A DNA stretch of 64,000 nucleotides, taken from Allocoprobacillus halotolerans (GTDB lineage: Bacteria > Bacillota_I > Bacilli_A > Erysipelotrichales > Coprobacillaceae). The DNA is taken from positions 2,523,608 to 2,587,607 of the forward strand of contig NZ_CP101620.1 of assembly GCF_024399475.1 (NCBI RefSeq), written 5' to 3'. The notes beneath the pieces were generated by a model, which was not told the origin of the DNA, did not search any database, and saw only the letters and a program-made list of their open reading frames with translations. Position 1 is the stretch's first letter; each line of letters starts with the position of its first letter. Both the position numbers and the translations under genes were made by a program. Shown in pieces: positions 14,710 through 18,392 of this stretch.

Positions 14710-16270
14710 TTATTCTTCTTGAGCCAATTCCAAACGTACACGTCTTCCTTTTATTTTTTGATTATAACAATAATCAAGCACTTGTTTGGCAGCAGTAGGC
14801 GTTAAATTAACAAACGTAAACTTTCTTTTAATTGTAATATCTCCAATATCTTTTTTAGAAATTTGAGCATAGCGAATAAAAAACTCAATAATATCTTTAA
14901 CATTCACTTTATCCATTGAGCCCACACTCATAAATAAACGTTGTTCTGTTTTATTTATATCATCCATTTCCTGATAATCATAACCAATACGCTGTGAATA
15001 GCACATCGCAAGTAAAGCAGCTAAAGCATCATTTTTCATATGCGAAGGAATATCTTTAGCAATCTTTTGAAAAGGCTCCAGATGTCCTTTCAACATTTTC
15101 TCTTGCACATCAAATAAAAGTTCTTTCATTTTTTGATTAAAAATATCCTCAATGGCTGGAATATCTAATTTTTCAATATGACTATGTGTATGCTTTTCAA
15201 TGGCTTTTAAGAAATTCTTTTCACGAGGTGTGATAATTGAATAAGCTTCCCTTTTTTGTTAGCACGTCCAGTTCTTCCAATACGATGAATGTAAAGTTCT
15301 TCCTCTTGAGGTAATTCATAGTTAATGACATGAGAAATATTATCAACATCAATCCCTCTCGCTGCCACATCAGTCGCTACTAAATATTGAATCTGTCCTT
15401 TTTTAAATCTTTTTAATGTGTTCATTCTTTGATTCTGTGATAAATCACCATGCATTGCTTCAACATTATAATGTTTTTGTTGCATAGCAGCCACCACTTC
15501 ATCTACAGAACGTTTTGTTTTACAGAAAATAATCGCATTATCCATTTCACGTGAATCCAAAATACGACACAACACTTCAAAACGACGATTGAGTTTGGTT
15601 TCAAAATAATATTGTGAAACAGTCGAAGCAGTCATTGTTTTAGCTTTAATTTGAATATGCTGATAATCTTCCTGCATATAAAAACTAGCAATCTTTTTAA
15701 TATCATTTGGCATTGTTGCTGAAAACAAAACAGTGTGTCTTTGCTCAGGAACAGTTTGCAATATAGTTTCAATATCATCAATGAATCCCATATTCAACAT
15801 TTCGTCAGCCTCATCTAAAACAAGCCATTCAACACAATCTAACTTTAATACTTTACGACGCATTAAATCTAAAACACGTCCTGGTGTTCCAACCACGATA
15901 TTTGCACCTTTTTTAAGGTACGAATCTGTTTTTCAATTTCACTTCCACCATAAACACTCACAATTGATAAATTCGTATATTTTCCAATACGTCTTAATTC
16001 CTCATCAATCTGCAAAGCCAATTCACGTGTTGGTGATAAAATTAAAGCTTGAACATCTTTATTATGCTTTTCAATGCATGAAAGCAAAACACTTCCAAAT
16101 GCTAATGTTTTTCCCGTACCTGTTTGTGCCTGACCAATAATATCATGTCCTTCTAATAAAACTGGAATAGCTTTTTCTTGAATAGGTGAAGGAATAACAT
16201 AACCCATCATTTCAATTCCCTGTAAGACTTGTTTTGATAAACCTAAATCATAAAAAGTTTTTTGTTGCAT
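14710..16270 (-). CDS. DEAD-box ATP-dependent RNA helicase (two frameshifts)
   Basis: RNA helicase of about 520 residues of the DeaD/CshA group that unwinds structured RNA in ribosome assembly and mRNA decay. Motifs are in order: Q motif (PSPIQEKAIPVLLEGHD), AQTGTGKT, PTRELALQ, GTPGR, DEAD (VLDEADEMLNMGF), SAT, then the second RecA domain with ATDVAARGID and HRIGRTGRA. The C-terminal 70 residues resemble the DbpA-type RNA-binding domain (RFTFVNL-like KFTFVNLTPTAAKQVLDYCYNQ). The reading is cut at T6 (15909-15914) and at C3/T6 (15249-15257). One extra base in each restores a continuous protein, so sequencing error is likely. Confidence 0.9.
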
Positions 16271-16428: not shown

Positions 16429-18026
16429 TTATTTTATTTTCTTTGCATATTGTAAAATATAGGGCCTCACTTGTGCTAAAAAATAAAGTGAGCCTGTTAT
16501 AAAAACAACACCTTGATGCAAAAAAGCCTCGTCAATCGCTTGATGCCAATCTTTTTGAAGTTTAACCGGAAAATCTTCTGCCAGTTTTTCAACTGTCTGA
16601 GCACGGTAAAAATCAAACTCACAGACAGTAATATCATCCGTTAACTTTAATAATAATTCCATCATCGCATGAGTATCTTTATCTTTTAAAGCACTAAAAA
16701 TAATCTTAATATTTGAATACTTACGTGCTGATTGATAAAAAGCTTCCATGCCTTCTTTATTATGGGCACCGTCAATAATCATCAATGGCTGTTTACAAAC
16801 AATCTCAAAACGTCCAGCCCACATTGCCTCCTTCAAGCCATCTAATAATTGCTTATCACTAAAAGTCAAATAATCATATTCTTTTAAATACTCTAATATT
16901 TCTACTGCCAATGCACTGTTTTGACATTGATAAATAGCACTTGTCTGTAGAGTAATATGATGTCCTCGGTAATCATAAGTTAAAAAACCATCATGATTTT
17001 CAATATTTTGAATTTCTTGCACTTGTATCAATGGACTATGGTGCTGCTGACAAATATCTTCAAAGACATCTAGGCAAACTTGTTTTTTTCACCAGTTACA
17101 AAAGGTATCCCTTCTTTTACAATCCCTGCTTTTGTTCGTGCTATTTTTTCATATGTATCTCCTAAATAGTCAATATGATCCAATCCAATGTTAGTATTCG
17201 CACAAATCAAAGGAGAAACAATATTAGTTGCATCTAATTCGCCTCCCAATCCTACTTCAAAGATCGCAAAATCAACACGATGTTTTATAAAGAACATAAT
17301 TGCAATAAAAACTTCTATTTCAAACATAGATAATTCATATTCCAACCATAAATCCATATATCTATTTGCATAAGTAATAATTTCATCTTCTTGAATATGT
17401 TGATCATTGATACGCATAATTTCTAAACGTGTGACAAGAACCGGCGAAGTAAATGTAGCAACTTTATATCCTGCTTTTTGTAAAACAGATCGCATATAAT
17501 TTGTTGTTGATCCTTTTCCATTTGTTCCACCAATATGAATCGTCTTCAATAAAATTTGAGGAGTGCCCATATCTTGCATAAAATGTCGAAAATTATCCAA
17601 AGCATAAACACGCTGTTTTTGACTTGCAATAAAGTCATGGACTTGTTTATATTCAGTAAAACGTTTCATAATCTTATGATGATAAACAAGTTGATTATCT
17701 CTATCTGTCCTTTGAAAACCTAAAGATAGACATAACTCTTTCCACTGTACAAATGATTCAATATACAAATCATCCTGTGTTAATGTTATTGCCATATTTA
17801 TCAATTGTCTGGCAATATCAACTCGTTGATTTTGTATCCAGAAATAAACAATCTTTTTAAAATCATAAATTCCGATGGCTCCAACAAGTTTTTGATCAAA
17901 AGCCCCAATAAACAATATATCTTTATGATAAGAAGCCATCATGATGTCCATTGAAAACTTTTGGTCATCATTAAATAACTGAGCAAATTCTTTGATTTCA
18001 TGCCCTCTTAATACTCTTAATTCCAC
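16429..18026 (-). CDS. folC: Folylpolyglutamate/dihydrofolate synthase with N-terminal acetyltransferase-like extension (frameshifted at a T7 run)
   Basis: About 532 residues after adding one base in the T run at 17083-17089. From residue ~130 on it is FolC: the ATP loop IHIGGTNGKGSTTNYMRSVL, FEVGLGGELDATN, NIGLDHIDYLG, KAGIVKEG and, after the break, MIIDGAHNKEGMEAF. It adds glutamates to folates and makes dihydrofolate. FolC is normally about 430 residues; the first 120 or so here are extra and look like a GNAT fold (FIGAFDQKLVGAIGIYDFKK, ELCLSLGFQRTDRDNQLVYHHKIM). The GTG start at 18026 follows AAGGAG and comes 1 base after the darA stop; a hairpin lies further upstream. The acetyltransferase call is tentative. 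Confidence 0.85.
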
Positions 18027-18027
18027 A

Positions 18028-18392
18028 CTATTCTCCTTTACAAAGAAAAAACAGCCAAAGCTGTTTTTTAAATTTTTCAAAACGGTCGACATCAACAACA
18101 AAAACAGTTGCTCCACCAACCAATACATCTACCATGATCGGAGTAAAAAATTCTCCCATTTCAGTAGGTGGAACTGTAGGTTCCTTTTCTACACGTTTTC
18201 TTGCATGAGCCTTGATAATTTCAAGGGCTGGATCTACCTTATCATCGTTTGTTCCAATAAAAAAGTCGTATTTCCTTTCTTTAAAAAACCACCAGATGTT
18301 GCTAACTTCGTTACAAAGAAACCACCTTCAGTTAATGCTGTTTGAACTGAATTACTATCATCATTGTTTACAATTGCAATTATGAGTTTCAT
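18028..18392 (-). CDS. darA: Cyclic di-AMP receptor DarA/PstA-type PII-like protein (frameshifted at an A6 run)
   Basis: PII-like c-di-AMP receptor. Seen: MKLIIAIVNNDDSNSVQTALTEGGFFVTKLATSGGFLKKGNTTF, the family core, then after one added base in the A run at 18259-18264 FIGTNDDKVDPALEIIK, a long T-loop region and GGATVFVVDVDRFEKF. Usual length is about 109 residues. Here the frame runs on to about 121 through a terminator hairpin (KKQLWLFF is the hairpin translated), suggesting that a second small error hides the true stop after EKF. It heads the darA-folC unit with its own promoter. Confidence 0.85.
18046..18069 (-). terminator. Terminator at the end of darA
   Basis: AAAAAACAGC (18046-18055) pairs perfectly with GCTGTTTTTT (18060-18069), loop CAAA. 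It lies inside the apparent 3' end of darA and just before the folC ribosome site, so it may attenuate folC. Confidence 0.85.

Follow-up and report, generated by a model that had tools for sequence, protein, structure and literature searches.

On the minus strand of the window, by which the whole analysed stretch of 64,000 nucleotides is meant, a reading frame lies open from position 18128 to 17070, and the folC gene within it, fused to an N-terminal GNAT-type domain, starts at the GTG at 18026 (Table 1). The earlier note had proposed this start codon together with a good ribosome site, and the proposal was confirmed: AAAGGAG precedes the GTG in the window sequence, the relatives start at the same alignment position, and their Shine-Dalgarno sequences are conserved, with an exact match of at least four bases at 31 of 33 starts.

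Table 1. Coordinates of the features at the fused folC locus (positions of the window).
Feature	Position	Strand	Basis
GNAT-type (pseudo-acetyltransferase) domain, residues 1-118	17673..18026	-	PF13673 match; AlphaFold2 model; PDB fold matches
Place of the acetyl-CoA pyrophosphate loop, residues 67-72	17811..17828	-	QRVDIA instead of Q/RxxGxG/A (alignment)
FolC, N-terminal part (P-loop GTNGKGS); shares the GNAT frame and ends at a premature stop	17070..17672	-	TIGR01499, 204 bits
A run near the folC frame break, probably an assembly indel	17083..17089	-	Sequence; two-frame tblastn match
FolC C-terminal part (DGAHN region), other frame	16429..17103	-	Frame reading; profile; tblastn
Shine-Dalgarno AAAGGAG of the fused gene	18033..18039	-	Sequence; comparison with relatives
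Terminator-like hairpin between darA and the fused gene	18046..18069	.	Aligned relatives
darA (c-di-AMP receptor), upstream neighbour, split over two frames	18073..18392	-	tblastn

The FolC part was recognized by profile TIGR01499 from residue 144 onwards, the N-terminal piece alone reaching 204.4 bits against a cut-off of 162.65. The P-loop GTNGKGS and the DGAHN motif, both invariant in the 32 full-length rows of alignment A2, are present in the window, although in two frames. The likeness to bacterial FolC/FPGS (TIGR01499; T. maritima 1o5z, L. casei 1jbw, E. coli 1w78) thus comprises profile, fold, P-loop and DGAHN. The listed relatives outside Coprobacillaceae, unlike the fused gene, are without the N-terminal GNAT domain of about 118 residues. 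A full-length model of the fused protein of one relative (L006; pLDDT 91.0, pTM 0.89) matched FolC 1o5z at E 3.4e-29 and is consistent with a set domain arrangement.

In the window, folC does not form a single intact frame, while full-length fused genes are intact in relatives. The frame stops at a TAG (17072-17070) just past the A run, and the C-terminal half follows in the other frame. By tblastn and frame reading, darA, a DEAD-box gene and the second folC of the genome are likewise split between frames, and every break that was read falls at or close to a run of A or T. Since several genes are split at or near homopolymers, the splits point to assembly indels, and the break in the window folC is probably an assembly error. 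Such a break does not bear on descent in the family, and the gene was still filed as FolC. The runs concerned are located at 15909-15914 for the DEAD-box gene, at the A run of Table 1 for folC and at about 18283-18288 for darA; the split second folC is found in L036.

The N-terminal domain and its acetyl-CoA loop

Residues 1-119 gave a weak match to Pfam Acetyltransf_10 (PF13673; 21.8 bits, E 1.9e-4), which for the domain alone misses the gathering cut-off of 23.6 bits. NCBIfam contained no match for the GNAT domain of the window, and a single-protein search of the PDB with it returned one match only, a non-GNAT at E 1.3. Among family members scanned singly, PF13673 was matched at E <= 0.01 by 27 of 33, with a best E of 1.4e-29, and a profile built from the 33 members retrieved GNATs of solved structure from the PDB, the best at E 6e-10.

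The AlphaFold2 model of the window domain (pLDDT 90.3, pTM 0.81) was placed among GNATs by Foldseek and VIA-align 2, with 30 matches at E <= 0.001. Its comparison with RimI (5isv) yielded a Z score of 14.0 over 126 residues and that with PaiA (1tiq) a Z score of 13.2, so that by model and RimI match the domain belongs to the GNAT fold. The earlier note had read these residues as an acetyltransferase-like domain fused to FolC and had named structure prediction and profile search as checks; profile, fold and conservation all agree with this reading, and a lack of GNAT similarity, raised there as a counter-argument, does not hold. The domain resembles the GNAT superfamily in predicted fold and in the family-wide profile signal; it differs in its fusion to FolC and in an acetyl-CoA loop that is altered in 21 of the 33 copies, including that of the window.

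In GNATs, the acetyl-CoA pyrophosphate loop carries the motif Q/RxxGxG/A, and in active GNATs the motif-B Tyr serves as general acid. The full loop motif was found in 12 of 33 copies. At the motif-B position, most relatives have Tyr or Phe and the window has Cys; some relatives, L006 among them, combine the full loop with the motif-B Tyr. Both the loop motif and the motif-B Tyr are therefore absent from the window protein, which, given the missing loop motif, was not filed as an active acetyltransferase; the loop sequence by itself is, at the same time, no proof that CoA binding is lost. The earlier note had also suggested that the fusion could link folate status to acetylation, and had asked for the loop residues to be inspected. 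With QRVDIA in place of the signature and Cys at motif B, such a link is unsupported for the window protein. Since 12 relatives retain the full loop, some of them may be active. When the loop state was followed on the FolC tree, at least five changes were counted, two of them forced by well-supported branches.

Distribution of the fusion and its gene neighbourhood

The same fusion was observed in 39 of 43 genomes of the window's family among the matches listed, counting G014; two of the 39 have shorter frames, one being the broken window copy (G000) and the other lying at a contig edge (G002). The family genomes without the fusion are G005 (69% complete), G006, G008 and G013. Long open frames (497-577 residues) turned up across the family when 60 relatives were searched. 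Named carriers include Massilimicrobiota, Candidatus Stoquefichus, [Clostridium] spiroforme, Faecalibacillus and Eggerthia, which we take to be members of Coprobacillaceae; the window's own genus includes G003 and G004. In no FolC relative that was read do the two parts stand as neighbouring genes of their own in the order of the fusion; the second objection foreseen for the fusion thus falls with the first. The domain is shrunken, part of it being lost, in four copies (L024, L025, L027 and L028) and absent in one (L026, from G006), where it may have been lost or may never have been present.

Outside the family, no FolC frame exceeded 483 residues. This holds for 139 genomes of the class, of which 108 had a match, and for a sample of 130 genomes, of which 79 had a match; the genomes listed from the latter sample all belong to the window's own class, and other classes were covered by 80 named loci. 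Absence from the sister family rests on the matches listed and on FolC frame lengths. The long frames of G395 (483 residues), G409 (474), G059 (473) and G046 (458), measured from stop to stop, were judged by eye to be upstream read-through and not GNAT.

A motif scan of the 80 named loci gave a FolC frame in 49, and 12 of these (L041-L052) are GNAT fusions; four more long frames among the 49 (L060, L068, L075 and L114; 482-496 residues) stand outside the fusion count. The sole other FolC fusion read among these 49 resolved loci is that of a Eubacteriales MAG (L073:3608-5413). It is likewise N-terminal, but its partner reads by eye as DHFR, a folate-pathway enzyme, and not as GNAT. In a Bacillota MAG (L053), two folC genes lie in tandem and are placed apart in the FolC tree.

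A two-gene precursor was not found: beside 11 unfused sister-family FolC genes no GNAT stands directly before FolC, and around 14 darA loci from 12 fusion-free genomes the place directly before FolC is likewise free of a GNAT, as is the same strand immediately downstream of darA. A GNAT near darA on the opposite strand (L144) and GNAT-like genes downstream of FolC (L127 and L133) were inspected by eye and rejected as precursors.

By tblastn, the fused gene directly follows darA both in the window and in 32 of 32 fused loci among L002-L034. A darA gene was found neither beside the domain-free copy L026 nor beside the 11 sister-family FolC genes. An intact darA relative (in L041) scored 120.8 bits against NF058593, under the cut-off of 140. 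Most of 13 aligned sequences, though not L011, retain the hairpin that separates darA from the Shine-Dalgarno site; it could attenuate the fused gene.

Most genomes of the family carry a second, unfused FolC, which adjoins ung wherever its surroundings were read. Downstream of the fused gene, folT, encoding a folate transporter component, was present in at least 7 of 33 loci (L015, L017, L020, L023, L024, L025 and L027), a count that is a lower bound because many loci end before folT would show. HPPK and DHPS were each found in only one of 40 genomes (G008). From this scarcity it follows that the family probably salvages folate and that its FolC is probably a polyglutamate synthase. In a passage of a 2007 comparative study (PMC1971073), monofunctional FPGS was predicted in salvage-dependent organisms. 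The sole carrier of HPPK and DHPS has three FolC genes (L130, L131 and L132); one unfused FolC of this genome follows darA and sits on a very long branch of the FolC tree.

Selection on the domain and its interpretation

In 18 of 19 pairs the dN of the domain was 1.8-6.5 times that of FolC; the exception was L033/L034, at 0.7 times. The bootstrap upper bound of the domain dN/dS was below 1 in 10 of 12 pairs, these being rough Nei-Gojobori estimates: codons were few, several pairs approached saturation at synonymous sites, and several had a sequence in common. The two pairs compatible with a dN/dS of 1 both belong to the window's genus. Unlike the other pairs, L033:4721-6295 and L034:4730-6304 have a loop-less domain as constrained as FolC, with a dN/dS of 0.05. 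Such constraint despite the lost loop suggests a positive role of the domain in these two sequences, not decay.

The reading that we favour, and that we hold to be rather probable, is that of an old GNAT-FolC fusion in which acetyltransferase chemistry was lost repeatedly while a folded pseudo-GNAT was kept in cis with FolC. The N-terminal domain would descend from a GNAT acetyltransferase, and FolC would probably act as a folylpolyglutamate synthase on salvaged folates. In the window species, acetyl-CoA binding and acetylation by the domain would be gone, and the folded module would remain attached to FolC, perhaps because it aids stability or packing. Because the cofactor signature is lost and the fold is still predicted, the window domain probably persists as an attachment rather than as a working acetyltransferase. 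Part of the reason for its retention may lie in translation: an in-frame internal start with a Shine-Dalgarno match of at least five bases was found in only one of 33 fused genes, so that FolC seems to be without a start site of its own and would be translatable only through the domain. The alternative offered in the earlier note, a relic module, fits better than the acetylation link does, although most of the pairs tested still show selection on the domain.

Dependence on the upstream start also lends itself to a different explanation, according to which the domain is a functionless neutral passenger that persists because FolC is translated through it and that is slowly being lost. The near absence of independent FolC starts agrees with this, as do the repeated loop changes, the shrunken copies and the one domain-free copy, the faster change of the domain in all pairs but one, and the two pairs in which a dN/dS of 1 is possible. 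Against it stand the upper bounds below 1 in the other pairs, the strong constraint in L033/L034, and the confident predicted fold of the loop-changed copy. A pure passenger of this kind is considered rather unlikely.

Enzymatic or sensory activity of the domain may persist in some lineages. An active bifunctional enzyme, whose GNAT part, at least where the loop is intact, acetylates a protein or an amine related to folate, would account for the copies with a full loop, some of them with the motif-B Tyr (e.g., L006), and for the strongest of the PF13673 matches. Since the loop is altered in the majority of copies, the window's among them, and the neighbouring genes suggest no substrate for acetylation, we regard this as unlikely.

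A sensor, in which binding of acetyl-CoA or a different ligand to the domain would control FolC allosterically, is suggested by the attachment in cis, by the high global confidence of the full-length L006 model and by the constant adjacency to darA, itself the gene of a signalling protein; with a ligand loop that is unconserved across the family, it appears improbable. We are equally doubtful of a ligand-responsive module that, where the loop is intact, would couple the polyglutamylation of folate to acetyl-CoA or some other metabolite, and that in other lineages, e.g., L033/L034, with a lost loop and a strongly constrained domain, would have been rewired to a CoA-independent input. That a frame error merely joins two separate genes, as the breaks near homopolymers in the window assembly might suggest, is practically ruled out by the fusion being open in many independent assemblies, including those of named isolates.

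Returning to the folded pseudo-GNAT kept in cis, its fusion to FolC represents a domain architecture of a core folate enzyme of which no description was found in the PMC literature searched. Within one family, intact, degenerate, shrunken and absent states of the domain can be compared, which makes the family a natural setting in which to ask what keeps a fused domain in place once its chemistry has gone. The architecture also bears on how common gut bacteria with a probable need for imported folate salvage this vitamin.

Within the window's genus, conservation of the domain was 76% in the beta1-alpha1 segment, 61% in beta2-beta3 and 42% in the CoA-loop region. Translation initiation may account for the conservation of the first 16 residues.
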